A stretch of 64,000 nucleotides of DNA from contig OY997589.1 in assembly GCA_963921825.1 (NCBI GenBank), positions 43,782,638-43,846,637 on the forward strand. The letters are read 5' to 3'. Origin of the DNA: Erodium maritimum (Eukaryota > Streptophyta > Magnoliopsida > Geraniales > Geraniaceae). A program made the position numbers and the translations under genes. This document shows, piece after piece, positions 10,526-60,800 of the stretch. The notes below the pieces were generated by a model. That model was not told the origin of the DNA. It did not search any database and worked only from the letters and a program-made list of their open reading frames with translations. The stretch's first letter is position 1, and every line of letters starts with the position of its first letter.

Positions 10526-10699
10526 AGGCCGCTACTGCCGTCAAAGGACGGTCGGGCAACCCTGACTGGCTTCGCTGTGGCCGGAAATTTCAGGCGAAGT
10601 CGACGATCTCCGGCGCCCAGCTGAACCCTATAGGGCTCGCACGTTTTCTCCCAATTTCACTCCACGCGCGGCGCGTTCACTCCGGCTTTTCTATTCAAA

Positions 10700-19018: not shown

Positions 19019-19558
19019 AAAATACTATTATCAATTAAAAAATATTCTGAAAAAAATGTTAAGAAAATAAAGAAAACAATTTAAAATTTTAATAAATAAT
19101 TTTTTTGAATGGCATACTTTGAAAATTTGAAAGTTAGACAAGGGTAACATTGACATTTTAAGTTTGTAGGAGTTAATGGAAATGTTTTGAAAAATTGATG
19201 GTTTATGAGGGGTATTTTGAATATTTGATGTCTATTGGATGAAAAGTTAACGGCGTTATACTAAAGTGAAAAAAAATAAAATTAAAAGAGTTAAATATAA
19301 AAAAGTAGTGAAGAAGGTGATGTGAAAATAAGACAGATTAAAAAAAGTATGAGCCTATTGAGAGAAGTTCGCTACAATGAATCGAAAACTATCCCACAAA
19401 ATCATTATCCTTATAAAATGGGTAAAAATATAGATTATTTAAAAAGACTCACGGAAATGAGAAAGGCCATAAAAAGCGTGATCCATCCAATTCCAGATTG
19501 TGGATATCTATCCCTCTTCTCCTACGACTTCAATTTGCCCACATCACCTTCCGGCGAC

Positions 19559-21962
19559 ATGGCAGCCATTTCCGCCGTCGCCGTCGCCGTCAGCCACTCT
19601 TTCTCCTCCCTCAAAACCTTCTGCTCTAGAAACGACTCCTTTTCCATCAGAATCCCATCAACCACCGCGCGCATTTCACTCCAATTCTCGTCTTCTCCAT
19701 TAGCAGCTCCGTCTCGCCAGTGGCGCGGCCGGAGGATCACTGCCGCCGTCGAACAGGAGGAGGAGGCTGGTGTGACAGCGCCAGTGGAGGTGGAGGAGGA
19801 AGGAGAAGAGGTCGCTCCTCCTCCTGCTGAGGAGGTTGTGGGAGCTTTGAAGACCAAACTTTACTTCGGAAACTTGGCTTACAGTATCGATAGCTCCCAG
19901 CTTGCTGGCATAATTCAGGAGTATGCAAATCCTGAGTTGGTTGAGGTATTATTAGATTGACTATCCTATTTCTCACAATTTCCCTCATTTCTATTTTGTT
20001 GATTGGGATGTATTTGTTTTGTTCAATTTCATGCCCAAATGCTTGTGGTTGTTGGGGTCTGCATTTGGCTTTTAAACAAGTTGCTTTTGGGTTGGCTATT
20101 CATACTGTTCTGGATGAATGCAATTATTAGAGAACCAACTCAACTAAAAGCTCAAGCGGACAAGCTCGTTTACGAGTTTGGCGATGAATAATGTAGAAAA
20201 AAGATGAGCCAATTGAGAAGAGTGATAAGAGCTGGTCCATTTTAGACAAATTTGATAAATAGAAAATAAATTAGAATTTTTCTCATATTAGAGGACCAAC
20301 TCAACTAAAAGTTCAAGCTGATAGTTGAAAGCTCAATTATAGTTATATTCTAACCGTAATCTCTTACACCCACCCACGGCCACGGATATGGGGTATTATG
20401 AGTAGAATTCTTATGTTGTTACAGGTCACACTAAATCCTTAGCTACATCAGGGGATTGTTTCTCGTCTTCCATGTTAGATCATGCTTTTTTCAGAAGCTG
20501 TGGATTTTTGCGGACACTACAATTGGCATGCTTGAACTTCGTTTCTCTTTGCACTTAGCACCTATTGAGCCTTTGATGTGCTCTTACTGGTAGTAACAGG
20601 TTGAGTTCTTTCTGAAACCACATCAAAGAGTTGAGTTTGTCACTTCACAAGCATGTCTAGCTGTTGCTCAAGTTCTAGCTTCCTTCTCTGTTATGAAATA
20701 CAGATTATTTGTATGAATGTCCACGCCATAAAATGAACAAGTTTAAAACAGAGCAGCAGAAGATATAAATCAGTGTGGGAGAAGTCATTCTTTTTCTTTT
20801 CGCAATCCTTTGATTGAACTCACTGTTTATTGATGTATGGGAATGTTGATAGGTTCTTTATGATAGAGAAACTGGAAAAAGCAGAGGGTTTGCATTTGTG
20901 ACAATGAGCAGTATTGAGGGCTGCAATGCAGTTATTGAGAATCTCGATGGACGTGTAAGAATCATCTCTCTGTTTCATATTCCATGTAATAGAAATGATC
21001 ATGCATATAGTAAAGTTTAATTTCCATTACGTGTTAAATATTGAGTTTCCAGTAAAAGAAATGTTGGGATTTCAGGAATATATGGGCCGGCAGCTACGAG
21101 TGAACCTTGCTGACAAACCAAGAAGTAGAGAAGAAGCTCCATATCCAGAAACGGAACACAAGCTTTTTATTGGTAATTTGTCGTGGTCAGTTACTACCGA
21201 AAGCTTGATGCAAGCTTTTAAAGAATACGGAGACGTGGTTGGAGCCAGGGTTCTATACGATGGCGAGACAGGAAGGTCACGTGGATTCGGCTTCGTGTCC
21301 TTTGCAACACGATTAGAGATGGAAGCCGCCCTTGAAGCTCTCGATGGAGTGGTATTACTCTCCTCCCCTACATTATTAATAGGGATAATTGCAAAAAAAA
21401 GTATAAAGAAGTATTCATTTTTTGCAAATCGTAGCCTGTCTTTTTTATAACTGCAAAAAAGTGCTTTGAACTTGCCTTTTTGTTGCATAGAACTTGTTTC
21501 AAAATGACGATTTTACCCCGTAAAAAAACTAGTAAACACTAAAAAAAATCCCGAATTTTTACCTCCCTTAATTTCCTTCCTTTTTGTACGTTGAGGAAGA
21601 AAATTAAGAGAGATGAAAGTTCTGGATTTTTTGTTTGTTCTTTACTTGTTATTTTCTAAAGGGTAAAATCTTCTGTTTGAAATAAATTTATACAACAAAA
21701 ATGCACATTGAAGACATTTTATTTGAAATATTAAAAAAGAGGGCTAGGATTTTTTAAAACTAAATACCTTAGGGGTTTTTCTTTTCTTCAACTATACAAA
21801 TTTAGTCTTGAACGTAAGAGACGTCAATTTAGTTCCCCAACTTGTAAAAATGGGTGGAGGAATTGGCCATTTGCGCTAAGAGGACATTGTTGTTTGATAT
21901 TATTGTAGGAGTTAGAAGGACGAGCCATACGAGTTAGCGAAGCTACAGGAGGAAGACGATAA
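19559..21962 (+). CDS. Chloroplast RNA-binding protein (cpRNP) with two RRMs
   Basis: Coding exons are 19559-19945, 20853-20954, 21076-21351 and 21909-21962. All junctions are phase 0 with GT-AG sites, giving 272 aa. The first ~65 residues are rich in Ser, Ala and Arg with few acids, as in a plastid transit peptide. An acidic linker follows (VEQEEEAG... VEEEGEEV), then RRM1 (RNP2 [12 protein letters not shown]1 [10 protein letters not shown]) and RRM2 (RNP2 [12 protein letters not shown]1 [10 protein letters not shown]). This is the plan of nuclear-encoded chloroplast ribonucleoproteins, which bind and stabilise plastid mRNAs and affect editing. The wording of RRM2 and the tail ([14 protein letters not shown]) is closest, from memory, to Arabidopsis At1g60000. 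ATG 19559 is chosen because the transit peptide starts there; the open frame upstream is AT-rich filler. Intron 1 carries a TRIM. Confidence 0.9.
20125..20355 (-). mobile_element. TRIM-like mini-retrotransposon in intron 1 of the cpRNP gene
   Basis: It has ends of about 70 bp as direct repeats (attagagaaccaactcaact and attagaggaccaactcaact) and internal phrases (gatgagccaattgagaagag) shared with the element at 45663-45993. The flanks GCAAT and GTAAT are 5-mers with one difference. There is no coding capacity; it is a fossil of a terminal-repeat retrotransposon in miniature. Confidence 0.7.
21377..21908. other. Intron 3 of the cpRNP gene with a MITE-like edge
   Basis: The intron contains GGGATAATTGCAAAAAAAAG at 21377, an opening like those of the 50759 and 58227 MITEs. 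No matching right end or 9-bp duplication is visible, so at most this is a truncated copy. Confidence 0.35.
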
Positions 21963-23234: not shown

Positions 23235-25060
23235 GCTTCTTTTTTTTTGGATAAGCGCTAAAATTTTATTGATGGTCATTCTCCAAGGAGGAAAAGCCAA
23301 AGAACAAGTACCACGATTACAAAAATCTCCATAAGAGAAAACAGGGAACAAACCCTTAACAAAGACGACCAGAAACATCCAGCCAAAATGACTTCCTCTA
23401 GTCTTCCTCATACCACTCGCTATCCGAGGTCGGTACACTTGAAGTCTTTTGATTGAAAGCTCGAGTCTTTGACCTGAGAGATTGGGTACGAGATACCAAA
23501 TTGGACTTAGGACGTCCTTTACGGGGCTTAGTCGCAATGGCTTCCTCCACCCACCCATCGATCGATTGCAAAGCTTTTTGGGACACGTTCTCAATGCTCA
23601 ATGGATGGAAGCTTCATGCCAAACACTTTATAATCCGAAAGATATGGGGGGGGGGGGGGGGGGGGGGCTCTCCGGACGAAGGATCCTTCCATGGGCCAGA
23701 CTCTCCGGACAAAGGATCCTTCTCTAAATCCATATTACCCTCCAACTGTGAAGTTGAAGATGGGTTAGAATTCAAAACAGGCCCAACCTCCTGAGACCTA
23801 CCTCCTGTTGGGCTCAGCTCACCACTACCCATCACCACCATTTCTCGTGTTTCTGAACCAGCAGCATCCAGCTTGAGCGTGTTGCAAGTATTGCCGACTG
23901 GGCTGGAATGATCGTGGCCCAAATGACCAACCTGGTCCGCAAGTACACAAGCCGGCTCCGGTCCATAACTTACTCCGTCTTCAACCTGCTCAACCACAAG
24001 TACGCGACTCGTTTCGTCGTTACGATCAGGACACTGCGAATCCAGTTGAGCCGAGATACCTGGAGACGCAACTCCTCGTCGACCGATCTCATCTCCGGCA
24101 GCCGTGTCCGACGCGAACACCTGAACTTGATTCCCATCGACTGGTTCTGACGTGGGTAACTGAGCTTCCCCACTCCATTCTCCCCCATTAGAGTCGATCA
24201 ACCCAGTTGAAACAGAACTCTGTTTCCGGGTAACCAAAACAGAGCAAGTGCTCTGTTTTTCACAACCCACAGAAACACGTTCTGGCGAAGCTGTCCTTGG
24301 TATCCTGCAACGAGCAGTGGCAACAAACAGCACATGCCCATTAATTTTGTATTCGTTTAAACCTTCAATTGCCTGATCCGCAACGACCTTGGAATCAAAC
24401 CGAATGAATCCAAAATACCGACCTTTAAGGTTCGGTCGTTTGAGAACACACACTGATAAGATCTTGCCAAAAGGGCTAAAGACATTCCGAGTCCAGTCTG
24501 CCGACGACTCGAACGGAAGGTTGCACACGAACACTTCGTCCTCCACGAGCTTACCCAACCTCCGTGATCGATTCCGACTCTTCACTGTCAAAGAAGCTTG
24601 TTCATTCACAATCTGGGTCGACATATGCAGATCAGGCACCATAGGGTCAGCTTTCCCATTCGAAATGGGAACCAATGGGTCAGCTTTTGAAACCGTTTTG
24701 GTAGCCGGAATGTTTGCCTTCTCCGGAACGATCTCTATCGCGTTGATCCCACCTGTATCGAAGGGAATCAAAGGTTCCTTGATCCCATCAGATACAACAA
24801 CGTTGGAACCAACTTGTCTCATCTACTTGAACCCAGCAGAAGAGGTCGTAGCCTGAACATCATTTTTCCGGCGACTACGCAAACCCTGTGATCCCTTCTT
24901 TACTGTGTTGCTAAGCCTTCTCTTCTTCACTCCGTTGATTGCTTCCTCGTCAGTCCCATAGAGGATTGAACAATACTCCTTGTACGAGGCGATCAAAACA
25001 GAGCAAAAGGAATTAAAATGGCAAGATAAAACGGTAAAAAAATCCAATTTTTCATACTGT
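23235..25060 (-). mobile_element. LINE with ORF1 and almost no ORF2
   Basis: A minus-strand L1-type element. The A-rich 3' tail is the T-run at 23241-23250, next to the phrase AATTTTAGCGCTTATCC typical of these LINE ends. ORF1 fills most of it, and the 3' untranslated end follows within about 150 bp, so endonuclease and reverse transcriptase are missing. The element has the same domain plan as the LINE at 8155-10690. Confidence 0.8.
23398..25047 (-). pseudogene. LINE ORF1 (RRM) with two in-frame stops
   Basis: One reading frame runs from 25047 to 23398 and is cut by stops at 24823-24825 and 23614-23616. The central 402-aa piece (ATG 24822) holds an RRM at residues about 90-170, with EVFVCNLPFES as RNP2 and KGRYFGFIRF as RNP1. 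It is followed by a long low-complexity Ser/Gly/Glu region and a proline run encoded by 22 consecutive C on the minus strand (23646-23667). The last piece (SIDGWVEEAIATKPRKGRP...) is the basic C-terminus. It is the ORF1 RNA-binding protein of an L1 element. The RRM resembles that of 9839-10525 more than that of 35431-37782. Confidence 0.82.
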
Positions 25061-31780: not shown

Positions 31781-34700
31781 TCATTTCCTTCTTGCACAAT
31801 CCTTAGGCATGGTGGTCCAATCTTGAATTGTGAAATGGTAGTTTGAGTTGAAGGAAGCCCATTCCCAGCCATAAACCTTGTTCAGTATCTTGTTGAAAAT
31901 TGTTTCAGGTGGTTCATCAACACCACTAAATAAGAAAGAATTTCTTGCTAGCCAGAGTTGCCAAAGAGTAACCTGGAGGATACTTCCCCAACATCTTTTA
32001 AGTTTTGAAGGAACCAGACCTGACCAAGAACAGAATAGTTGCTTGACATCAGCTGGACAAATCCACTGAACTCCCCACCATCTGCAGACTAATGTCCAAG
32101 TAATCCAAGCTTTTGAGCAGTGAAGGAGGATGTGTGCTCCATCCTCAAAATCCCAGGAGCACTGAGGGCAGATTAATTGTTGCAGGGATAGATCCATACC
32201 CCTTCCATCTAGAAAGCATTTTGATGGTATTGCTTCTAGACAGGCAAGCCAAGAAAAAGCACATAATTTTGGGGGAATGTCAGAAGTCCAAACCTTAGAG
32301 GTCCATTCCACAGAAGAGTTGTTTTGTTGAGCAAGTAAGGTGTATATTCTGCTCACTGAGAAGACTTTTTCATCTAATTTCCAGCAAAGTTTATCCTCAT
32401 CTGAGCTTAAGACTGTAGAGCTAAGAATGGCTGAAAGTGATCCCCACTCCAGTATCTCCCTGCCCATTGCAGACCTTCTGAAGTTGAGATCCCAATCTCC
32501 ATTGGTTCTGATCTCAGCAATGGATTTGAATTTGGAATTTGACAAGGCAAAAAGTCTGGGAAATAATAATTTGAAAGGTACATCTCCCCACCAATGATCT
32601 TGCCAGAACTGAATTATATTGCCTTTGCCTAAAGTCCAAGTAAGACCTTTATCACCAAAGCAATCAGCAAATCTCTCATCTTTGAGAAGAACTAGGAAGT
32701 GTGAGATAAAACTTGGTCTTCCTATCTTAGTGAACTTTGATAAATCCCATTCATTGTAGTTCCAGCCCATTTTAGCACAGATGGTATGCTTCCAAAGTGA
32801 GTTTTCTTCCAATGCAAATCTCCACCACCATTTTGCTAGTAGAGAAATATTCATCAACTGCAAGTTTTTTATTCCAAGCCCTCCCAGTTCTTTGGATTTG
32901 CAAATTTGATTCCAACCAACTTTGCAAAAGACCTTGGAAGGAGCATCACCATGCCAAAGGAACCTTCTTTGCCAACTTTCCAATTCCTTGAGGACTGCTT
33001 TTGGAGCTTTGAGTAGGGAGAAGTAGTATAAAGGAAGAGCACTGAGAGTTGTTTTTATTAGAGTAATCCTTCCTCCAAAGGATAGCATTTTTGCTTGCCA
33101 CAGTCCAAGACTTTTTTTGAATTTGCTGATGATGGGCTGCCATGTGATGAGTCTTTTGGAGCTGGCACCCAAGGAGAAGCCAAGATATGGCAATGGTAGT
33201 TTATCACAGCTACAATTTAGAATTGATGAATAATGTTGTGCTTCTTCTGGAGATAAATTGAGTGGGATCAAGGAAGATTTGTTGTAGTTGACATTGAGGC
33301 ATGTCATGAATTTAAAGATGGAGAGAGTATTTTTCAGGTTTTGGGCTCCTTCTGTGGTTGCCTTGATGAAGAATAGTGATTCATCTGCAAATTGTATATG
33401 TGAAATGGTTGGCCCATTAGATCCTAAAGAGATACCTTGGAATTGATCATGTAGTAGTCCAGCTTGCATGATTTGGTTTAAAGATTCTGCAGCTAAAGCA
33501 AAGAGAAGGGGGGATAGAGCACATCCCTGTCTGAGCCCTCTAGATAACTTGAAATCAGATGATGGGGAGCCATTGATAAGTATAGAGACATGTTCTCTAA
33601 ATCAAGAAATCATCCAGAATCTCCACTGAAAACCAAAGCCCATTTTCTGCAGTAACTTCATTAGATAGAGCCAGTTGAGTTTATCAAAAGCCTTTTCAAA
33701 GTCTGCTTTAAAGATCAGAGCTTCCATCTTTGAGTGTTTGATCTTGTTGACCACCTCATTAGCCACTAAAACTCCATCCAGGATCTGTCTCCCAGCAATG
33801 AAGCTTGTCTGTTCAAACCCAACCAAGGAACTGACCACCCCTTTTAGCCTTGTGGATAGCAATTTTGTGAGGATTTTGTAAGGGCCAGACATTAGACTTA
33901 TTGGTCTAAAGTCATTAAAGGTGGGAGGGGCATCACATTTGGGAATGAGAGTGAGGAATGAAGAATTCAAACCTTTTCCCAAATGGCCTGTCCTATGAAA
34001 GTATTGGATAAAGTTGACCAGATCCTCCTTGATTTTTGGCCAACAAACTTGATAGAATCTTAAGGAGTAACCATCAGGACCAGGAGCCTTATCTCCAACA
34101 CAGGCCATTAGGGCCTTTAGAATTTCATCTTCAGTGAAGGATCTTTCAAGTTCAGCAGCTTGATATGAGGAGATTGTCTTGAAGTTCATATTATCAAGAT
34201 TTGTATGATTTGAGCCTTGTTCAGTGAATCTTGCACTAAAGTGTGAGGCTGCAGCAGCTTTGATTTGATCTGGATCTTCTAATAGCACATCATTGACCAA
34301 GATCTGAGTTATTTTCTTCCTGGATCCTTGAAAATTGGCTAGCCTGTGATAGTATTTGGAGGGTTTGTCCCCATCATGATGCCATTTTCTCCTTGCCTTT
34401 TGGCTCCATAATTTGGCTTGTAATTTGAGTTTAAGTCTCAAAGCAGCTCTCTTGAATCCTCTCTCGGAATGTTCAGTAGGGGTGAGATCTCTATCTTCAA
34501 CAATTGTATCTAGATAGTCAAGATCTGAGTTGAGGGCTTTGATATCTGTATCTAGAATGCCAAAGACTTGAGTGTTCCAATCCTTTAGATTTTCTTTTAG
34601 AAGCTTGAGTTTTTTTCCATAGGAGTAGGCGAGGTTGGCCTGTTATTTGGTATGATGACCAGAAGAGTTGGACATCCTTGAAGAATCTAGCATCCTCAAG

Positions 34701-35425
34701 CCAAATGTTCATAAATTTGAAGGGTCTTGGGCCCCAATCAATTTGTTCATCATAAAGGAGTAAGGCTCTATGATCTGAGATACCTCTTGAAAGGCATTTT
34801 TGTGTAAGATTGATGTAACAAGGTATCTATCAATCCTTGATGCTTGAGAGCCAGGAGCAAACCAAGTGAATTTGCCTCCATTTAGTGGTAGATCAATCAA
34901 GGCTAGGCTATCAAGAAGGCCTTGGAATGAAGCAATATCACTGAGAGAGGCCCTTGCACTGGATCTTTCATTTCTATCTAGGACTGCATTGAAGTCACCA
35001 GCTAAAACCAGTAGTGGTGGAGGAGGAGTATCAGTAAGAGCAGCAATTAAATCAAGCCATATGGTCTTTCTTCTTCTGCTATCACAAGGGGCATATACAT
35101 TAACTATACAACAAGGATCACCAGAAGCTTTGATCAAGCCTAACCAGATTAGAGCTCCATTGATCTTCTTAGTCATAGAAAGTTGGAAGGCAGATGTTCT
35201 CCAACACATAATTAAACCATCAGATAGTCCAATAGAAGGAATATAATCCAATTCCCACCCCCAATTCATTCCACATGAACTGAGAAAGGTTGTAGCAGGA
35301 GCCAATAATTTTGATTCTTAAATAAGAACCATGGAGGGTTGTTGCTTGCGGATCACGTCACCCAGAGACTTCCTCTTTTGAGAGGAAGAGACTCCTCTTA
35401 GATTCCATGAGAGGATCTTTATTTG
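31781..35425 (-). pseudogene. LINE ORF2: endonuclease, reverse transcriptase, zf-RVT
   Basis: The endonuclease opens ILSWNLRGVSSSQKRKSL near 35420 and runs through GLIMCWRTSAF and GGKFTWFAPGSQASRIDRY to 34709. An in-frame stop lies at about 35320. The next open piece is 34441-33602 with DKAPGPDGYSLRFYQ, PISLMSGPYKILTKLLSTRL and FKADFEKAFD, the palm domain of the reverse transcriptase. A stop near 33600 separates it from 33469-31781, which holds HIQFADESLFF, where family members normally have FADD; a stretch matching LRQGCALSPLLFA lies between them. The C-terminal zinc-binding region is CPQC...HILLHCS...WW at about 32040-32150. A frameshifted gap lies at 34442-34708. The enzyme is probably inactive. 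Confidence 0.9.
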
Positions 35426-35430
35426 TAGGT

Positions 35431-37782
35431 TTATAAAGAAGGAAAAGGAGTGGGCACATTACTCACAGCCAAGGAAGTGTCTGACCCTAAAGGATTCTGA
35501 TCTGCAATAACATCCTCTTGGGTAAGTAATAGTCTTTCATCATCAAGAGAGGCAAGTTCCTGGAGGATTAAATGTTCACTGTAATCAGCTGTAAGACCTA
35601 TTACTTTTCCAAACGACCAAGCCTTTTTAGCTTCATTGATCTGTCCCTTTGAGAGGTAAGTCTTTGGAGAGGAAGAGTTGTCTTTGTATTTGGATCTTGT
35701 TGGATAAACATGAGGTGTGTAACTGGTCTTGGTTTTCTTTCCCTTGCCTTTGTTTTTGGAGAGATGGGGGAATTTTGAATCCTCAATTTCTATAATATCT
35801 GAAAAATCTTGGGTCAGGTTTTGTGGGGTCAGCTTGAGGGTTTTGCTGTCACTTCCAAGCAAATCCAACCCTTGTGTTTCCCTTTGCAGCTGTTGGAGGT
35901 GAGTTGGAGGTGATTGTTGAGCTGAATATACTTCTTTTGGGGCAGGAGCATTTAATGTTGCAGGTTCCAAAGCCATGCCATGTATGGTAGAGAGAGGGTT
36001 TACATTTTGGGTCTCCCCCAGCAAAGAGTCTTGATTATCCATTGTACTCTCAAGGTTGGGATGGGGTTGAGCTAGTTGGCAAGTAACTGCAAGAGTTGTT
36101 TCTTCAGTGAGATGGGGTAACTGAGTTAGGGGGGCCAATTGGGGAGTGTTGGAGCAGAGAGTTTGAGAGCTTGCAAGTCCAAGTTCATCCACAGTATCAA
36201 AGGTATCTTTTACCACTTGATTGAGAATAGAAGTGGTAATGAGAAGAGACTGGGATGGATCTAACGGATTTTGTTCAGCAGTAGAATCAATGAGGGTTTG
36301 ATATGCAGTAACTGCTTTAATGCCAGAGTGATAAATGTGTTGGACTTTACTCAAAGGATCAGAAGAGTTAATGGGTTGATCCGAGGTTGTTGGTTTATTA
36401 CCACCCAGTTGTGAGGACAATAATTCTTCAGAGTATGAGTTATGGAGAGAGGCATCAGAATCAACATCACCTTCAGAACTTTCTTCATTAGGAACCTGCA
36501 AGCTTTGTAACAAAGAGATCTCTTCTACAGAAATAGACTGAACCCAAAGTGGAAATGATTATGTACCTAATAATATATTTGCTTCAGCAGAGATTTGGGC
36601 ATAAGATGTAGAATGTATTAGAACATAGGCTCCCTCTATGAATAAACCAGCAGCTGTTAATGGGTGAGTGTAGACAAAGGTGCCAAAGTTGGCAGCTGTT
36701 GTAGCAAAAGATTCATCACACCATCCTTGGTAAGGTAAGCCTCTGATTTTGACCCAAGTAAAATGACCACCATACTTACAAAGAAGATCCTTTCCAGGAA
36801 TGAAAGAGAGCCAATTCTGTAACCAAGCTCCATTATCTTTCAAGAATTCCTCCTCAAGCTCATTGTTTTGACACTGGATAAGAAGAATGTTAGACCCCAG
36901 ATCCTTAACCTGAATCTCACATACTCCTTCCATGATGAGGTCTCTAGTGATAGAAGCAGCATTGTGATTTTGAAGGGCTATTGCAAGGTGGGCTTTGTGC
37001 ATAAATTGTTGGTGTGAAGTAACCACAGATCCTTGATTTGCAGGAGGTTTGAAGGCATGTGGGAGTTGTGATCTATGGTTATTCTGATTGCTTCTTGCTT
37101 CTGTGACAAAGAGTTTGCAACCATTGATGGTATAGCCATTAAAGAGGGAGATTGCTTCCATCAATTGTTTCTGATGATGGAAGTAACAGAAACCATACTT
37201 CTTACCCAGCCTGCTTGGATTGGCAGGAATATGAACTTTTAGGATCCCCCTAATTTCTGCAAAGAGAAGTGCAAGCCAATCTTGTGTAGCTTTAAGAGGA
37301 ATATTGTGAACATAAGCTACAAATGAATCACCCCTGTTTTGTTGAAAGACTGGGTTTGCTCTGGGATGTGTTTGAGGGTGTTGAGTGGTAAGCAATATGG
37401 GTTGGATAACTTTGTGAGAGGTGTTGTGATATTGATTGTCCTCAACTTGATTATCCTCCAATGAGTAGGTAGGGGTTGCATCAAGACCTGAGAGAACAGG
37501 TTTGAAAAACCTGTCATAGAACATCTTTTGACCATCTAATAACTTTGTGCAACCTCCTGGGGAGTATTCTTGGGTTTTATCAGTTGAAGAGGAAGAAAGA
37601 GCTCCCTGAAATCTTCTTCTTCTTGATCTGAGCAGTTTCTTTGGCTGATTTTCAAAGCCCGGAGGAGGTCCTACTGAGGAGGAAGAGGTTGTCTTCTTAA
37701 GTGTGCTAGCTTGTTCTTTGAGTTTAGAGGACAGAAGTGGCGCTTGCTGGGATCCACCCATAAGTTCTTCTAAGGAGAGCAT
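35431..37782 (-). pseudogene. LINE ORF1 with RRM and DUF4283-like domain, one in-frame stop
   Basis: The frame from 37782 to 35431 is interrupted only by TAA at 36559-36561. Residues about 150-230 form an RRM (FVAYVHNIP as RNP2-like, KKYGFCYFHH as RNP1-like). Residues 260-400 form a DUF4283-like block (DNGAWLQNWLSFIPGKDL, GLPYQGWC, FGTFVYTHPLTAAG). After the stop come a Ser/Gln-rich linker and a basic C-terminus (KGKGKKTKTSYTPHVYPTRS) ending shortly before the endonuclease of ORF2. RRM plus DUF4283 is typical of plant LINE ORF1 RNA-binding proteins. The start at 37782 is the longest fit, and a short leader precedes it. Confidence 0.88.
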
Positions 37783-38008
37783 TGTTGCTGGTGTAGCAGA
37801 GGTTGCTTGTTGCTGGTGGAGCAGAGGTTGCTGGTTGATGATCCAAAGAGATGAGGATGGTGATCCGGTGTTAAGAACACCCTGGATACTACACCAAAGT
37901 AGAGAATAGCCCTCTTGCCGTTAAGAACTAACCCCTTGCATCAAGAACATGAAGAACAGAGAAGAAGAATGGTTGAAGAATGATGCAGTGACACTTGAAG
38001 ATTATTGT

Positions 38009-48275: not shown

Positions 48276-48963
48276 TGTAAAAGTTGACTTCAAACTTCAA
48301 AGCCTCTCTCAGATGATCATCTGGCTGATTCTCGCCTTGTTTCTTCACACCCACCATCCATACTATATATGCAAAAAGATGGGTCCATGTGCAACAAGGA
48401 CTTATTGGGCATGTTTGGCTTATTACAAGAACTACAAGCTAGTACTTCTAAGTCCGTTCAGGTAAAACACTACTTTCTCGATTGATCGCAGATAACCCAG
48501 AACAACAAACAAGTTGTGAAGTCATTTTGTGATCTCTATTTGCTGGTCAATTCATAACAGTCATTTTTTTTTATCTCTGTCTGCTAGTCAAATCAATTGC
48601 AGACTACTATTTTTTCAAATTCAATCGCAAGAGAAATTTCAAAATCGTGGCATCAAATCAAACATCATGATTCCTCGAATGTCTATACATACATGTGAGT
48701 CAACTTCTAGGGCTAATTTTCAACATCACATGAAATGAATAACGAAATGGGCATTCGAATTATTAGATGCAAAGCTAATTGTGGGGAAAATTAAAGAGAA
48801 ATGAAAGAAAAGGAGCAGACCTGAGGGCAGAGAGGCACGAAACGACGAAGAACTGAAGCAGATCCGAACTTCTGATATAGCTTATCGTTTTTCATCGGAG
48901 AAGGAGACGCCACGTGTCACTTTATAGTAATACTGAAAAGAAGGAGAAAAGATTTAAAATGTT

Positions 48964-49036
48964 TGGAGATGCGGGGTATCGATCCCCGTACCTCTCGCAT
49001 GCTAAGCGAGCGCTCTACCATCTGAGCTACATCCCC
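48964..49036 (-). tRNA. tRNA-Ala (anticodon AGC)
   Basis: A 73-nt cloverleaf on the minus strand: acceptor GGGGATG...CATCTCC with A as discriminator, D-arm GCTCAGATGGTAGAGC, and anticodon arm CTCGC-TTAGCAT-GCGAG with AGC. The T-arm is CGGGG-ATCGATA-CCCCG. The A box (TAGCTCAGATGG) and B box (GATCGATACC, with the loop A for the usual T) are present. It is intronless and nuclear in type. It lies about 70 bp from the likely first exon of the TPR gene on the same strand. Confidence 0.97.
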
Positions 49037-49904
49037 ATTTGTCCAATACATATTCTAAAATATTCAATTACTATAAAAGTAGATTTGTCTCGAATTTCCG
49101 TTAATTTATTCCGACTCTCACTTTCTTTCCTATGGTTGAAATCTTACACAAAACCAAACCAGAGTTGTTAAATAAACACTATTCTTTACCAATGTTGTTG
49201 TGGAACTTCTTTTTGCCGCTATCTAGGAACAAACCTCGATTCATCAAACAACCATGAGAGAGATTGTGTAAAATATATGATATTTTTTCTAAACAAATTT
49301 GTACACTAGTTTTTAAGATAAAATGGTTCATAAAAATATGTCATTTCAGAAGAAAAATACGAAATATTTTGTGGAGCATGAATAAAGCCTTACTTAGGGT
49401 GATGTCGGAGATATTTACAAAAAAAAGTGTAATGTACGATATTTGTACTTTGCGCTTCTTAACTAATGTCATTCTCATGGCTCTTTTGGAATTTATGATG
49501 GTGCGATAATGTTTTATAGATTAAGGTTGTTGAAACCAAAATGTTGAGCCAAACAAGAATGTTTTCACACGTGGCTTAATGGTTCTTCTAATACATGTGC
49601 TATATGAGGAGAAATCAAATACAAATCATGTCTTAACCTAAAATCTAGAGAATCAATCTAAACCATCTATTTTAAGAATGAAGGGATGAGATGCAATTGA
49701 GTGGTTGACTTGTTGACTGCAAAAAAAGCAGTACTTTTTAGTAAGTGGGAAGGGCTTTTTAGTAAAACTATCATATTACTTTTTTTTACCAATTCACTAA
49801 TTTAATTTTTCTCACTTCGTTTGAACTCCGGTTGGCTTCAAACTTGCGCCATTAGTTTTGTTTTTCAATGGCTTTCTATCAAGATCACTCATGAATATAT
49901 TTTT
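49037..49904. other. AT-rich intergenic DNA
   Basis: No gene found. Frames here are short and of biased composition. Confidence 0.5.
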
Positions 49905-50492: not shown

Positions 50493-50758
50493 CCATGTAT
50501 ATTTGGTTGAAATACAAAGAATGGGAGGAATAAAAATGGATGTTCATATTATGAGTCTTGTTTATAAATGTGGTCCGTAAATGTGTTCTTCATATGTTCC
50601 ATATATAATCATGGACTTTATTTATATTTTGATAAGATTATTATTCTTTGATTTGGAGTTAGCTTGTTTTACAACACGTTATCATCGCGAGTTGTTCTGC
50701 TGTTCAGGTATTCAAATTTCATATTATCATAAATTTGATTCGTTGATACTATTTATTA

Positions 50759-51113
50759 GGGATAATTGTCAAAACATGCACTAAAGTTTCGTCCACAAAT
50801 GAAATAGTGCACAATGTTTCGTCCACGTTGTGTGGCTACCCTAAAGTTTCGTCCACGAACATTTGTTAGTAAAATTACTTATGAAACCTAAATCAGCAAA
50901 TTACTTTAGGGTAGCCACGCAACGTGGACGAAACGTTGTGCACTATTTCATTTATGGACGAAACTTTAGGGTAGCCACATAGCGTGGACGAAACGTTGTG
51001 CACTATTTCATTTTGTGGACGAAACTTTAGGGGTAGCCACACAACGTGGACGAAACGTTGTGTACTATTTTATTTGTGGACGAAACTTTAGTGCATGTTT
51101 TGACAATTATCCC
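50759..51113. mobile_element. Mutator-type MITE with 9-bp target duplication
   Basis: A 355-bp element from GGGATAATTGTCAAAACATG to the complementary ...TTTTGACAATTATCCC. The flanks TATTTATTA (50750-50758, 51114-51122) are identical. Inside, the phrase 'gtttcgtccacgttgtgtggctacccta' recurs in both directions; its right arm has three tandem copies. Same family as 58227-58589. Confidence 0.92.
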
Positions 51114-51926
51114 TATTTATTAACAATACTCCTGAAATATATATGTGCTCGTTCCATACTTATTTGGATCTGCTTTTTATATCCCATAAGTATGATCTGT
51201 GATCGCCAATATATATTGGATCTTTCACATCAGAAATTTGATGTTTATCATATATAGTTGTGTTTCATTGTTGATACTCGAAATTTTGAGATTTGTTGAA
51301 ACCGAAGCATTTGGACCTGAAGTTCCAAAATGCAAAAACTGCATGTTAACATGCAGCTTGGCTTAGGGCCTGAAGCTTGCAAACTTTCTATGCGAGTTAT
51401 ATGAGTAATTTTGTTACTCTATGGGTTCACTCGTCGCATGGTCATTTTATGAATGGGTTTGTGAGTTCGCATATTGGTAGCCTGGAGTTTACAAATATGA
51501 TGATATATATTGGACCAGAAGTTCCAAATGCATAATACTAGCGGACTGATATATGTTGGACCAGAAGTTCCAAATACATGATACCAGCGACCTGACGTAT
51601 TTTGGGTCGGAAGTTCCAAATACTCCACACCATCGGAGTAGGTATCAATTATAAAAAACTTTAGGGTAGGTATTTGTAATTTACCCTTATTGTAATTAGT
51701 TGGTACATGTTTGTTTCCATTTTTAGATCTTGACATTTCTTGTATAGATGTGTATGTGTAATACCATTATGAATTACTACGAAATAAGAAAAAATATGAG
51801 GAAAAAACTCTCTTTACATGGTAGCAGAGCAATGAGGGAGGATTTCATCCCTGCTCCAAAGTCCCGGAAGTCTCGGCCACGACTTCCGGCCACCAAACCA
51901 GTTGCTTTTTCAACATGGGCACCATA
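51114..51926. other. LTR- and MITE-derived debris next to the gene-capturing element
   Basis: At 51655-51686 lies one end of the 5281-5725 MITE family (TTTGTAATTTACCC). At 51805-51829 CTCTTTACA is followed by TGGTAGCAGAGC, which looks like the end of a plus-strand Copia LTR and its primer site. From 51480 to 51610 a phrase (ttggaccagaagttccaaat) is repeated three times. No gene. Confidence 0.4.
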
Positions 51927-52328
51927 GATAAGAAGAAGTCGTGTTCCTTTTTTCAAAACAGGGACCTAGGCTTTAGTGACTATTTTCTCTTCAGTTGGGC
52001 CTCGACATGTAAGCCCATGAACACCAACTTGCGGTCCATTAATTTCTACGATCCTAACAATGCTCTCCCCTTCAATAAGACTTGTCCTTAAATCTTCTTT
52101 AAACATGCCATCCTCAGTCTCGTTCCAGAAAAAACACCTCCCACATAACAAATTGTAAGTCCTTAAGTCTTCTTTAATGAACACTCTTGTAGTATTTAGA
52201 GCATCTGAGACACTACAATTTCTTTCTCCAACTATAAAAACAGTCACTCCAAAAGATAGCTCTGACAGTGGTTCTTGTACTTTCTCCTTATCAATCATGG
52301 AAATAATTTTCTGTAAGCATGCTCTGAA

Positions 52329-52700
52329 CTACTGATACATAATCCTCAATGTAAAGTTTCCTTCAGAAATCTTTTGTAGAAGCTTAGATTGTTGACCCCT
52401 GAAAACGACTTCATGATTTTTCCATAAATCTAAGCTTATCTCCCTTTTCCATATTTCTGCTAACAATTGGGTTAACATCAAACTCTTCAAACTCATCCCT
52501 GTGTTTTCTTTTCCAATAATAATAACATGCCTCTTTGTAGCTGCAATAGTACTAAGTGCACCATTTCCGTTTGCGTGGTCCTCCCTTTTGGTAATAACAA
52601 ATGTTCCAACCACAACACCTTTCTTGAATGCTTGAGCATGATCGAATGCAGCTTGGCCAGTACTGACGTTTATTACAAGAGCAACAAGATCTGGTTTAAT
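52329..52700 (-). pseudogene. Captured SRP54 fragment
   Basis: The minus strand reads IKPDLVALVINVSTGQAAFD, HAQAFKKGVVVGTFVITK and GALSTIAATK. These correspond to the SRP54 G domain (KPDLVIFVMDSSIGQAAFD, then AQAFK, [20 protein letters not shown]). It ends LLQKISEGNFTLRIMY, the start of the M domain. SRP54 is the GTPase of the signal recognition particle. The fragment lies inside the LTR element and covers only part of the protein. It is a fossil, not a working gene. Confidence 0.88.
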
Positions 52701-53804
52701 GTACTTACTGAATTGAGACTGGTACTTCTTAAGTTCATCTTCAATCAACAACTTCATGTGTGCAACAACATGGGCACCATAGATATGCTTTTGGAAAACT
52801 TTAGCATCAAGTTGTGTGCACACCTTGTTAGAACCAACAAACCTCTTCTCACTATGATGAAAAACAAGTTCACCATCCCATCTACTTTAAGAATACCAAA
52901 AGTTGAATTTTCAATTGTTGTTCTAGGGAGACTAGCATCAAGAGGAACATAAAAGGGTCTTCTTCTCTTTCCTGGTTCAACATAAAAATCCTCCCAAACT
53001 GCCTCAGTACTACTCTCATATTGGCTATCCTTCTCTTGCATTTCTAGTACTCGGTGGCCCAACAATAATCCAATAAAATAAGTGAGGCTCACTTCAAGGA
53101 CAAATTGAGGTAGTTCATGAGAATAAGCAGTTTCAAGGGTCATATCTCCAACCATGATGGCTTTACTTTGCTTTGGAGTGTTCATTGATGAAATGATAGA
53201 CCAAAGGTTCCCAAACAAGAAGAATCTAAAATCCATGTACGCTGGTAGTAGACTCATAATCATATACCCACCTTCCTCGAAAACCCAATCCATTAACCAA
53301 TGAGGAATCTGCTCTAGATAAATTTTGAACTTGTTGTTGCCATTTATTGAATACTCTTCTATCTTGTACTGATATACTCCTTTGATCTTCTTTAAATAAC
53401 CCCAAAAGCTTGGATCTCCATAAGGTTCCCATGAATCCCCATGCACTGGTTTATCATACCGGAGCCCTTTGTAGTTAAGAGAGTAGGAAAACTATTAAAT
53501 CTCTCAACTAAATCTAAACCCAAGTTTATGATCAATGTATATCCCGTCTGAACATCCACCCTTCCTTGTAATGCATAACCACTAGTGATCTTTCCACAAT
53601 CCCTCAATAAGATGATCCCCCATAAGCCATAGTTGTACTGATCGGTTTTGACCTCACCCCAACAACCATCCAGAGTAATCACGGTGGTAAACTTATCCTT
53701 TGGAAGCTTAAGATGATCTGTCAATTTCAATGAAACTTTTGATCTGCACATATATATATCTACCTTTCTCCTTGCTAGATGTAGGCATAGAGACAATTTA
53801 ACCT

Positions 53805-54025
53805 TTTCAAGCTTTCCATGAATTCCGGAGAACACACCAATATCCCCATCACGGAACTCAAGTCTTTCAGCATCAACGCATGAAACTAATATTGCATTGT
53901 CATTGTTAATTGAGCCAATTATACCTGTGTGAGGTTCCTCCACATCGACGTCCAGAGTAGTGAATTCGTGTTTAGAGTAAAAAAACACATAACCAAAAAG
54001 ACCTCTAACTTCAACGTTGATGAAG
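53805..54025 (-). pseudogene. Captured ubiquitin-activating enzyme E1 (UBA1) fragment
   Basis: The minus strand reads [11 protein letters not shown], then [16 protein letters not shown] and [20 protein letters not shown]. These match the E1 segment [44 protein letters not shown]...DERLEFQDGDLVVFSEVxGM. E1 charges ubiquitin for transfer to E2 enzymes. Only about 70 residues are present, joined to unrelated sequence on both sides. A fossil in the LTR element. Confidence 0.9.
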
Positions 54026-54129
54026 ACTATTGATGGCCTATTGTTGTAACAATAATAATTGGGTTTAGGCTTATTTTTAAGGGGTTCAGTCAGCATCTTG
54101 ACAACAGTAAGAACACTTGTCCCAAAATC

Positions 54130-54470
54130 CTTAACTTCTACAGTATTCTCTGTCTAGATAACTTTACAACCCATGTTTTCAAGAACCTTAACAAATTTAA
54201 CATCACCATATATACTGCTTGTCCCACAACCTCGAACAGTGACAATCTTACTAACAATTGCTACACCACCATAGAAATAACTATCACTTGAAGCATTACC
54301 TTTCACATGAGTGTTTCGAGGAGTTATGTATTTTTGACCCCCTTGGATGAAGAATCAGTGCCCTGTATCACAATGCTCCAAGGTGACTCCAAAACGTTCC
54401 ATTAACTTCAAAATCATCTCAACATAATAAATTGAGATTAACTTATCAATAATCTCAATTTTCATGTCCG
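54130..54470 (-). pseudogene. Captured EPSP synthase fragment
   Basis: The minus strand reads [31 protein letters not shown] and, further on, [18 protein letters not shown]. Plant EPSP synthase (shikimate pathway, plastid) has [26 protein letters not shown] and [28 protein letters not shown]. About 110 residues of the enzyme's middle are represented and no intron is visible across them. It is a fossil in the LTR element and directly upstream of the E1 fragment. Confidence 0.9.
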
Positions 54471-54639
54471 AACGAGTTGTCAAAACTGTGATTGCATTGT
54501 TAGGCTCTTGCAACTTCTGAAAGGAAGCAAATACTCTATTCTTACCCACATCACTCATTGAGAACATAAAATTGCTAGATAAATTCCCCAGCTCGGCATC
54601 AATATTACCAGACCCAATCAAATAGAAATTTGGCACGAC

Positions 54640-55000
54640 CCTAAATTGTAATGCTATGTTCTGCACCTCCCACTTAATGGTCATAAGAAAAAGATAAACA
54701 AGATGTCCAATAACATAAGAACCACCCAAAATCATCATCTCCTCAAGAGTAATTGTTGTTCCACTCCAAAAAAACACAAGACCCTTAGTATCAGCATGCC
54801 TCCTCTCAACAATCCCACATAAAACATTCATCAACTAGGTTATAGCCCCGAAGTTCCCCAACCCTATTCATGATCAAAGGCTTAAAACCATATCTCATAT
54901 ACCCATATGATAACATTTCACAATAACTCATATCAACACCAATGCTGGACGGCCATATGATAACACCATTAGTTTGCTTAACTAGCTTGAAAGGGTATAA
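54640..55000 (-). pseudogene. Plant-mobile-domain-like fragment
   Basis: The minus strand reads [21 protein letters not shown], resembling the plant mobile domain motif (F...GExTITLEDVxxLxGxxVxG) of MAIN-like proteins and of some transposons. An adjoining frame reads YCEMLSYGYMRYGFKPLIMN. It could be another captured gene piece or an old coding part of the element. Confidence 0.5.
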
Positions 55001-55182
55001 TTCGAATCAGATAAAAAATACATCAATCATGTTGTGTGCAATCATATTTCCGTCATTCATGAAAATAATATGGTACCCATCGTCCATGACTTCTGGTTTT
55101 ATCAAAAACCTCATCTCTGCTATCTTCAGCTCACTTTCAGGTTGAAGCTCAACTGTCATGGTCGCATTTTTGCAAGGTTCAA

Positions 55183-55401
55183 CTACGAAAAATATATGAG
55201 TGACAACAAAACTCGATCCGTTCCCAATAATGCCTCAATTTCTTGTTGCTGCAACTTCTTCTTCTTTGCTTCAGCTTCCACTTTTGCTTGTATTTCAGCC
55301 AACAATTTGGCTTTTATCTCAACCTCTATTTTTGTCCGGAGTTCGGCCTCCCTCTTTGCTTCTAGTTCGACTTCCCTCCTTGCTTTGAGTATAACCACCA
55401 T
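55183..55401 (-). pseudogene. Coiled-coil stretch in the LTR element
   Basis: A minus-strand frame is dominated by alternating Glu, Lys, Arg and Ala (RREVELEAKREAELRTKIEV...), predicting a charged alpha-helical coil. It lies just downstream of the primer site, where gag would be expected, but has no zinc knuckle. Gag remnant or captured piece cannot be decided. Confidence 0.45.
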
Positions 55402-55664
55402 TAGTGAATGTCGCTGTTTTTCGACCTCAAAGTCTCCTCTCAGTTTGTACTCATACGAACGTCAATCGTTGAGACGTTCCACGATGTCGTTCAACTCGAC
55501 TCGGAGACCTTGTTCCAGCCTTCATGGAATCCTTCCATGTTCCTCCTCCTTCTTCCCCAAATGTGTAATCAAATCCTCTGGACTTGGTCACACCTTTGGA
55601 TCTCCTTTTCTATCCACGAAATCTGCAAAATCAGCTCAGATATCTCCATTGTTGTTGAATCGTT

Positions 55665-55677
55665 GGATCTGATACCA
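55665..55677 (-). promoter_or_regulatory. Primer binding site of the gene-capturing element
   Basis: TGGTATCAGATCC on the minus strand, one base inside the 5' LTR end. Similar to the initiator tRNA-Met primer sites of plant LTR elements. Confidence 0.8.
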
Positions 55678-56119
55678 GTGTAACGGTTTCGAAAATATAA
55701 CCCCAAAATATGAAAGAACACTGAAACTAAAATTTGAAATTGAACGGATAAGTGGTGAATTACAGAAAGAGCGTGACATTTCTTCAAGCTCACTTCACCT
55801 TGCTCCAAGGTCTGCCTCTCACTACAATACTCTCGTTACCCAAATACAGAAACCCTAACCCCTTACAAATACCCTCTCCATTACCTTTTTGCTGGTCCCC
55901 TCCTTTGCATAAGCTGCCTTCTTTTGACTGGCTATCCTTTGTACCCACGAGCTCCTCTTTGTCCTCTTCCTCAGCTCGCGCATCATCCGCACGAAGAAGT
56001 CGTGTTCCTTTTACAAAACGGCGACGTAGACTTTAATGACTATTTTCTCTTCAGTTGGGCCTCGACATGTAAGCCCATGAACACCAACTCGCGGTCCATT
56101 AATTTCTACGATCCTAACA

Positions 56120-57821: not shown

Positions 57822-60800
57822 ATGTATTGGTTTACAACCAGAAACGCCATCGTTTCCTTTCCCCGCTGGCGCACCCTCTCTGTCCTGCGTCGATCGTCAC
57901 TTCACAAATACATTTCTTTCGCTCCCACTCCGTTTCTCCTGTAATCTCTTTCTATCCTTGCATGTTTGTATTTGGTTTTTATATGTATTTATATGTTTAT
58001 GCCTCAAGAATCATGGCGGTTATTAAGTATTGCAACTGTCTCTCCTTATATGGCCTTTATTACTTTTCTTCTGTTTGTATAGCTGGTTATTTTTGAAAAG
58101 TTTTGCTTTTATGCTTGGATTGAAATTTGAGGATGCATCTTATTTGATGTGCAAGAGTTACTCGTTACAAATGATGTTTAGGATAAGGGCAGACAAGTAA
58201 CTGAAAAGTGTGTCTTATTGCTTAAAGGGATAATTGTCCAAAACTACCTTTAGGTTTCGTCCACAAACGAGTTGATGCACAAAGTTTTGTCCACGCTTTG
58301 TGGGTGCACATAAGTTTTGTCCACGCTTTTTTGGGTGCATTGAAGTTTTGCCCACGCTTTTGTGGGTGCATTTAAGTTTTGTCCATGCTTTGCGGGTGCA
58401 TTGAAGTTTTGTCCACACTTCTATTCAATCCGGGAAGCACTGCCGAGACCATCATTCTGAGCATCCCTATTACGTCAAAACCAAAAAAGTCGTGGACAAA
58501 ACTTCAGGGTAGCCACACAGCGTGGACGAAACTTTGTGCATCAACTCGTTTGTGGACGAAACTTTAGGGTAGTTTTGGACAATCATCCCTTGCTTAAATA
58601 TGCAAATCCATTGGAAATTTTTGTACACCCTAAGAATGTTTTCTCCCCTATTCAGACTATTGATTCTATCTCTTCCCTTGCACGCTTTTACATCATAAAT
58701 GTTTTTGATAAACTGTCCATGTGTGCGTTTAGGGTTTAAACGAAGTGGAGGCGGGTGACCCAATTGGGGGCTAAAGCTTTCCCATTACCCATTTTCTCCA
58801 TTCACATTTTCTACTTACATTGTATCTGAAGCCCTGTTCTCTGTCTCTCAATCAATTTTAATAATTATTTTGTGATTTCCTATTTATTTCATTCTGCAAC
58901 TATATAGTAAAATACTTCCTTTTTGCTACATCAGCAGGCAGTCCAATCAGACTTATTGCTTCAAAGATGTGAAAGTTTCGAGAGGAACGAGGAAGGCAAC
59001 CAAGAAAGTTAAAGAACTCAAACTTACCTTGGATGATAAAGATCTTTCTCACATGATGTGGTGGAAGGAGGTTTGGTTCTTTACCCGGTTTTCATAGTGT
59101 GTGCTCTATGATTTCCCTGAATTTGGTTATGATATTATTTTGTTGTTGCTTTTTTATTGCAGAGGATGGATGCATGTAAGAAGCCCTCTACCATGCATCT
59201 AGTTAAAAGACTGTCATATTCCAATTTGCTAGGCTTGGATGTTAACTTGAAAAGTGGGAGGTGAGCTATAATGATGTCGAAGCTGGTTAGTTATTATATC
59301 GACCACATGTGTAATGGCCAAAGAATACCTTCATGATTTTTATTATTTACATTTTCTGATTTCTTTCATCTGAGGCCACATGTTTTGCCATTTCCATTAT
59401 CAAGTTGTATTGTATACTTTCTTATTTGGTCTTATTTCTGTTATATAGGTTAAGTAATTGCAGCTGAAATTGGTGATGTTTTTATTATGCTTTAGATGAT
59501 TAAAATTAATTAGTGATGATGTAGTGTTATGTCTAATTGGAGATAGTGAGTCACTGCATTAAAAGGCCTGCAATGGCCAATTTAAACTTATAAAAGTTTT
59601 TCAGAGTTGTTTGCTAGGGCATATGTGTTTCCTATTGTTCAATTTTTTTCTTCTTATGATGGATGTTATTCCATCCATCACATTATCAATTCCAACTGTG
59701 ATTTTTTTTTCCTATCAAACTATATTTATTTGAATATTTTATGTCATGTTTAAGTAATGGTGTGTGGTTAATCTCATTGCTGTCACCATTTAGTTCATTA
59801 AATGTAGTTTGAGGGATGTTGCGTACTATAGAAGAAAAACCAAGAGCGGCTTAGTTGCAGGAAAATCAACTTCAAATTTGTATGGAATTAATTACAAAAT
59901 GCTTGTATGAGCACTTATCTAAATAGTGCATTAACTAATGAGCAACCATAAGTATGATATATGTTCAAATAAAAAGCCTCTTATATGGATAAGTTCCTTA
60001 GATTGCTCCGTATACCTGATGCTACACGTAGAACTTACCAAATTGAACCAACTACTTCCCAAGATGAACAAGGAAGTCTGTGTAACCTAGCATGACTCAA
60101 CATGGTCATACCCCTTGATTGTCTTTTTCTATTCTGCAGATGGTGCATTGGCGGGTCTTTTTGTTTTGCATAAGCTTTCTTACTTTTAAATTTTGTTTCA
60201 ATTTTGTGTAATAGAATTGAGATAATATATGCATACCAACGCCTAGTTTGGCCAAATGGTTAATTGCTTGAGTCCATGGCCCAATGCCCAGGGCTCAAGC
60301 CTAGCAAGCCGCTGCATTATCGAGCAAAAAATGTATTTGCTGCTTCCGAATCATATCACAGAACCATCAAGAGTATATTTTCTATGAGACCGTTATGTCC
60401 AATTGAAAAGTTAATGACATCTGTGCATCATCTGGTACCTTTCTTGCTTTTTTTAATTTGTTTTTAACCTGCATGATTGAGACTACTTGAAAGACTTGAT
60501 ATTGTAAAACTCATATAATTTTGTTGAAAATGACATAGCCTTTGAGGTCTATCTGGATAACAAAAAAATAATACTTTATTTGGAAAGTAAAAGACTAATG
60601 CTTAATTTTGTAAGAATTACATAGAATGTTGAAGTTCCGATTAGTGCGTGGTGCTAAAGTAGTTCATAATAAAACAAATGGAAGAAACTCGATCCAGAGC
60701 TTAAATGGAGAAAGGTCTGCTATATTGTGTCTAGTGTTTGCTGTTGGTCGCTACTTATATGCTAAAACTTTAAAAGGTATATACTTAATGTTTTCATGTT

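Follow-up and report, generated by a model that had tools for sequence, protein, structure and literature searches.

A degenerate LTR retroelement of Erodium maritimum with fragments of five, and probably eight, host genes, one of them nested in another

Introduction

How do pieces of several unrelated host genes come to lie in one direction between the long terminal repeats (LTRs) of a single retroelement? This question is raised by an element at positions 51949-56119 of a 64,000-nucleotide stretch of the Erodium maritimum genome (contig OY997589.1), which we call the window and in whose positions all coordinates are given; the element lies on the minus strand, which is its sense strand. A first-pass annotation had described it as an LTR retroelement with fragments of three genes, SRP54, the ubiquitin E1 gene UBA1 and EPSPS. 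We found that these three are present and that the count was too low: matches to a GH100 invertase (8.5e-26) and to RPL5 (7.5e-20) are also firm, and weaker matches point to three further genes. The nesting of EPSPS within UBA1 and the in-frame joints between the pieces are new here. We conclude that reverse transcriptase (RT) very probably built the interior of this degenerate non-autonomous LTR element by switching repeatedly from one spliced host mRNA template to another.

Results

Two LTRs of one element enclose an interior in which no pol was found

The 5' LTR (55679-56119, 441 bp) runs from TGTTAGGATC to CCGTTACA and thus has TG...CA ends. Its first 111 bases, 56009-56119, pair without a gap with a 3' LTR remnant at 51949-52059 that holds those 111 bp only (104/111 identical); the 3' LTR no longer has its CA end, and nothing of this LTR is present beyond 51949. 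The primer binding site TGGTATCAGA (55668-55677) lies one base past the 5' LTR, and we take it to be the end of an initiator Met tRNA primer site. A polypurine tract, GAAGGGGAGAG (52063-52073), stops three bases short of the 3' LTR remnant. Even with its 3' LTR truncated, the element measures 4,171 bp. Pfam searches of all six frames at E values up to 1 gave no RT, RNase H, integrase or protease family. With direct repeats, a primer site and a purine tract, and with no pol found, the element is a degenerate non-autonomous LTR retroelement. The first-pass annotation was therefore right that the TGTTAGGATC ends belong to the LTRs of one element with a primer site and a purine tract, and that no pol is seen. 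The start that it gave, 51927, is not the element's end, since the LTR stops at 51949; position 51927 belongs to a 20-base stretch copied from the element, close to the broken LTR and described below.

Five host genes are firm and three more are probable

Minus-strand translations were searched with stops written as X, and frames were counted from 56119. In the three minus frames, Pfam returned EPSPS, GH100, the plant mobile domain (PMD), SRP54 and RPL5, while the UBA1 domains were weak (E 0.16 and 0.2). The three plus-strand frames of 51900-56119 gave no Pfam family at E up to 1, and the matches are thus in minus frames only, in agreement with the earlier claim that the fragments follow the sense of the element. 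From 5' to 3', the element reads leader, unassigned stretch, PMD, UBA1, EPSPS, UBA1, iPGAM, GH100, GH100, RPL5, SRP54, CPN60 and purine tract.

As judged from protein matches, five host genes, UBA1, EPSPS, GH100 invertase, RPL5 and SRP54, are firm, and all are in sense. UBA1 is represented by two pieces. The first (54475-54594, 40 codons) matches NCBIfam TIGR01408 at 9.3e-07 and is 55% identical to an Arabidopsis UBA1 reference sequence; the second (53806-54132) matches the same model at 7.4e-22 and E1 chains at about 1e-9, and as a fragment it scores far under the whole-protein cut-off of TIGR01408. The EPSPS piece (54133-54474, 114 codons) aligns with residues 196-309 of the chloroplast chain PDB 7pxy_A (1.1e-40), with 71/114 residues identical and no gap over the 114 residues. 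It contains two stops, one at an Arg and one at a Trp position of 7pxy_A. GH100 alkaline/neutral invertase is also found in two pieces: 53405-53631 matches positions 116-188 of Pfam PF12899 (4.1e-14), and 53157-53407 matches positions 229-313 (8.5e-26) as well as CINV1 (1.7e-18, 38/85 identical). Where they meet, at 53405-53407, about 40 model positions are absent and the frame changes; this gap might be one skipped exon. The first RPL5 (uL18) piece (52884-53155) matches an RPL5 chain at 7.5e-20, and the second (52690-52880, 2.1e-16) resumes the first after three bases. The SRP54 piece (52330-52688) covers the GTPase domain and beyond, with E values of 6.4e-11 in Pfam and 2.7e-14 to an SRP54 chain over 137 residues. 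Compared with an SRP54 reference sequence, a middle stretch may fit frame 1 better. Chance similarity was considered for the fragments and is ruled out by E values down to 1e-40.

Three weaker matches probably bring the total to eight host genes. A probable PMD fragment at 54690-54834 matches PF10536 at 6.7e-07, scoring 29.2 bits where the curated cut-off is 34.9. The probable amino end of iPGAM (phosphoglycerate mutase) occupies 53632-53805; 21/34 residues are identical to what we take to be the Arabidopsis amino end (E 4e-12), and the alignment scores 96, compared with a maximum of 49 in 2000 shuffles. Part of the 5' untranslated region (5'UTR) perhaps precedes this amino end. The same stretch gave no match in Pfam, PDB or NCBIfam. 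A probable CPN60/HSP60 piece (52164-52334) has one stop and an 8-residue in-frame gap and reaches 0.0086 with the NCBIfam GroEL model. In PDB, 18 chains match one and the same query stretch at E up to 1 (best 0.19), of which 17 are named 60-kDa or GroEL-type chaperonins and the remaining one is glomalin. Against a CPN60 reference sequence, the piece scores 90, with a maximum of 42 in 2000 shuffles.

EPSPS derives from a spliced mRNA and interrupts UBA1

According to the exon positions published for wheat EPSPS primers, DRFYIKGG and KGGQKYK belong to exon 4 and LEMMGA to exon 6; the wheat splice junctions are stated there to be the same as those of rice and Amaranthus palmeri. Translation of the wheat primers returned these residues, and their counterparts in the element, the codons at 54342 and 54183, are separated by 159 bases or 53 codons, the spacing seen in the protein. 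The piece thus extends from exon 4 into exon 6 with neither intron 4 nor intron 5 and therefore derives from a spliced mRNA, which bears out the capture of spliced host mRNA that had been proposed at the outset. The alignments of the other fragments likewise show no insertion of intron size. The Solanum alkaline/neutral invertase genes are described as having mostly four or six exons. On the sense strand of 52060-55678 there is no run of six or more A, and the interior therefore holds no trace of poly(A)-tailed pseudogenes.

EPSPS sits inside UBA1, with one UBA1 piece before it and UBA1 resuming in order after it. In the TIGR01408 alignment, the first piece covers model positions 60-124 and the second starts at 107. 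EPSPS starts at residue 121 of that frame, so the last ~25 aligned positions of the first piece already lie in EPSPS, and the first UBA1 piece proper ends near model position 99. About 8-28 UBA1 codons would then be lost between the pieces, on comparison with a UBA1 reference sequence; the loss is given as a range because the first ~20 codons after EPSPS are only weakly alike. The order of these pieces suggests that UBA1 was left and then rejoined, which is the outcome expected of switching between packaged RNAs. The GH100/RPL5 and RPL5/SRP54 joints are tight, with adjacent matches that abut or overlap.

Most joints keep the reading frame and stops are few

Frame 1 is common to PMD, UBA1, EPSPS, the second UBA1 piece, iPGAM and the first GH100 piece, frame 0 to the second GH100 and first RPL5 pieces, and frame 2 to the second RPL5 piece, SRP54 and CPN60. 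When the internal gap of GH100 is counted as a joint, eight of nine joints are in frame (P 0.001). The number is six of seven without iPGAM and CPN60 (P 0.007), and five of six under the strictest count, in which the first UBA1 piece is left out as well (P 0.018). The remaining frame changes fall within pieces, as expected of later insertions and deletions.

The assigned segments contain only three stops in 808 codons, a total that takes in ~20 possible 5'UTR codons and a part of SRP54 that is perhaps in another frame. When the same stretch is read straight through without switching, every one of the six frames has 33-60 stops. We simulated neutral decay in nine settings, with codons drawn from the base composition, reference letters taken from the printed alignments and segments that share a few bases at their ends. 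As the neutral target we used an identity of 0.66-0.74, which is that of EPSPS and RPL5 raised by a guessed host divergence, and GH100 and SRP54 were excluded from it; we take the EPSPS and RPL5 reference chains to be from plants and the SRP54 chain not to be. Across the nine settings 8.8-14.7 stops are expected (P 0.0003-0.024, below 0.05 in all nine), and 2.0-3.1 if neutrality covers only the time since the last insertion. The chimeric frame, now broken by stops and frameshifts, was thus likely open until about the last insertion, which falls short of proof.

Captures probably predate the last insertion

The age of the insertion is estimated from a single LTR pair, 111 bp long. Its K of 0.066, half of it per lineage, corresponds to 2.5 million years at 1.3e-8 or 4.7 million years at 7e-9 substitutions per site per year. 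The cargo is more diverged: EPSPS is 61-63% and RPL5 52-61% identical to chains that are 79-89% identical to one another, and the simulations attain the assumed neutral part of this divergence at 0.14-0.20 substitutions per site. Because this is several times the per-lineage LTR value, the captures probably predate the insertion and the mosaic has probably moved before.

Other features of the element and its surroundings

Upstream of the host fragments lies a leader coding region (55183-55649). It starts with an ATG at 55649, 18 bases past the primer site, and has a Lys/Glu/Ala-rich, coiled-coil-like part at 55461-55183, shifting frames and stops. Pfam has nothing better than E 0.04 for it, and the best NCBIfam match is a TolA-type low-complexity one (0.0019, 17.5 bits against a cut-off of 59.45). 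It is followed by a coding-like stretch in frame 0 with one stop (54806-55234), for which Pfam and NCBIfam give no significant family and whose 3' part may be the upstream portion of the PMD piece. The ~25 codons between PMD and UBA1 match no family in Pfam or NCBIfam. In the tail of the element, 52085-52102 and 52160-52177 form a near-identical 18-base direct repeat, of which the first precedes the purine tract and the second is at the edge of CPN60.

Near the broken LTR end, 51911-51930 is an exact 20-base copy of 52766-52785 in the RPL5 piece. This resembles filler DNA copied from a nearby template and suggests repair filler or a template switch. On the plus strand, 51640-51910 resembles the 3' end of another LTR followed by a primer site pointing into the element; we take TGGTAGCAGAGC near 51820 to be that primer site. 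The sole other match of this LTR-like sequence in the window is weak, 82 bases at 5310-5233 (68%). Foldback structures at 50750-51122 and 58225-58591 flank the element, and both have GTTTCGTCCAC-type repeats.

Farther away, the minus strand carries a broken element of the long interspersed nuclear element (LINE) type at 31781-37920, with an RRM/DUF4283 open reading frame (ORF), an endonuclease and an RT with zf-RVT. Two further RRM-domain ORFs on the same strand, 9839-10531 and 23614-24822, resemble the ORF upstream of the LINE RT. The sequence at 19301-21450 may hold exons of a gene for a chloroplast RNA-binding protein, the second ORF having an RRM (1.3e-20). Two tRNA-Ala (AGC) genes are predicted at 13153-13232 and 48963-49037.

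Discussion

Origin of the mosaic

Assembly by template switching could have proceeded as follows. RNA of the LTR element and several cellular mRNAs would be packaged together, presumably in the virus-like particles of a helper element. Minus-strand synthesis would begin at the tRNA primer, jump to the 3' end and proceed upstream, while RT swaps RNAs at several points and once goes from UBA1 mRNA to EPSPS mRNA and back to UBA1. Since this process preserves the ends of the LTRs, the primer site and the purine tract, the product would be able to integrate and move again. One or several rounds of capture may have been involved, and the frame might have been kept for translation-linked RNA stability, for packaging in cis or for a role of the protein.

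Three other origins are less probable. A chimeric or domesticated fusion gene of the host could have arisen first, its one spliced mRNA being captured once by the LTR element; in-frame joints and few stops are the expected trace of a translated gene. We consider this unlikely, since internal pieces of unrelated enzymes, with EPSPS interrupting UBA1, would make an implausible ordinary gene, and the ATG stands so close to the primer site as though the frame belonged to the element. Capture at the DNA level, in which a Helitron, Pack-MULE or other DNA transposon acquired pieces of genomic DNA and the LTR element then landed next to or around these, has a precedent in that DNA transposons frequently bear gene fragments, as a review states (PMC13317346). 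It is very improbable here, given that EPSPS lacks introns 4 and 5, that all fragments are oriented as the LTRs are and that the primer site and the purine tract sit at the inner edges of the LTRs. Moreover, no inverted pair of at least 20 bases has its arms at the element ends, in a search that did not extend to shorter inverted repeats or Helitron ends. The least probable of all is the successive insertion of separate processed pseudogenes into one LTR element: every piece is exon-like and decayed, as this would predict, but the pieces are internal mRNA fragments, the matches at GH100/RPL5 and RPL5/SRP54 leave no space between them, and the interior is free of A runs.

The remaining alternative accepts capture by template switching and holds that the cargo was neutral from the start, so that in-frame joints and few stops are luck. 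Its probability overlaps with that of the preferred explanation, and we regard it as a serious minority possibility. Frameshifts and stops do exist, EPSPS and RPL5 taken alone fit neutrality in most settings, and the strictest joint count reaches only P 0.018, while the P values of the joints (0.001-0.018) and of the stop deficit (0.0003-0.024) agree in direction against it. At the other extreme, a single frame of about a thousand codons or more, built from seven or eight host mRNAs, may have been kept open through several rounds of transposition with selection for a polyprotein or for translation; this, too, we regard as a minority possibility. If true, the element would actively shuffle exons instead of passively carrying debris.

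Several points weigh against assembly from spliced mRNAs with an open frame. No target-site duplication is readable because the 3' LTR is truncated at 51949. The 64-kb window holds no second copy of the element, and a search of viral contigs with the LTR start and a chimeric piece gave no match and no confirmed relative. Intron positions were mapped for EPSPS only. As for the frame, the gene-to-gene joints are in frame in eight of eight cases, a count that is biased because following the open frame is what drew attention to iPGAM, CPN60 and the first UBA1 piece, and the joint inside GH100 is out of frame. The make-up of the 808 codons, noted above, belongs here as well. EPSPS and RPL5 alone have 2 stops where 3.4-6.1 are expected (P 0.03-0.33); neutrality is not rejected in 8/9 settings, and a claim of selection from these two genes, with P < 0.05 in only 1/9, was rejected. 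Their substitutions are slightly more conservative than neutral in a weak test (P 0.025-0.225).

Comparison with known systems

In the parts of the surveys and case reports that we compared, plant LTR elements usually carry one host fragment and about three at the richest. Five to eight spliced fragments with nesting would directly record that RT quit a template and later came back to the same one. If the frame was kept open, the element shows how new genes of several domains could arise from RNA and be retained for trial, and it bears on exon shuffling without recombination at introns.

The earlier remark on the rarity of plant elements with several host genes is in line with the maize survey and with the literature on Bs1 and on terminal-repeat retrotransposons in miniature (TRIMs). 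In maize B73, 425 intact LTR elements were reported with gene fragments, and none, under the conditions of that survey and in the part of it available, combined fragments from two or more standard nuclear genes (PMC2774510). LTR elements of rice and sorghum likewise bear host gene fragments, and the portion of the paper at hand describes no multi-gene mosaic (PMC3726574). These elements thus resemble the present one in their host fragments and differ in that no multi-gene mosaic is reported, as far as the accessible text of both sources goes.

Closer parallels are Bs1 and the TRIMs. Bs1 of maize is an LTR retroelement that holds segments from three host genes along with a new chimeric gene, according to the review (PMC13317346). 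It shares with the present element the LTRs and the several host genes, and it differs in having three genes where we find five firm and up to eight, one of them nested; the chimeric frame described here is a putative counterpart of its chimeric gene. Exons of more than two genes occur in two TRIMs, and soybean GmaRetroS15 has three genes, exon-only, one piece being from a 5'UTR and one spanning exons 5-9 without introns (PMC4717578). Like the present element, GmaRetroS15 holds pieces of several host genes between its LTRs. A joint frame is not mentioned in the accessible part of that source, in contrast to the in-frame joints here, and the gene-carrying TRIMs measure 1,172-1,449 bp, compared with 4,171 bp for the present element, which exceeds the TRIM size.

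The mechanism that we favour, template switching among spliced mRNAs, is that of LTR-mediated retroposition, in which switching between element RNA and mRNA could theoretically occur several times (PMC5408686, citing Tan and coworkers, in the part available); the present case would involve many switches among five to eight mRNAs. In the open-access literature we found no report of this gene combination or of an LTR mosaic this rich. As far as seen, five to eight genes, one nested and fused in frame, exceed the published cases that we found, and the element represents an extreme form of the known multi-gene, exon-only capture.

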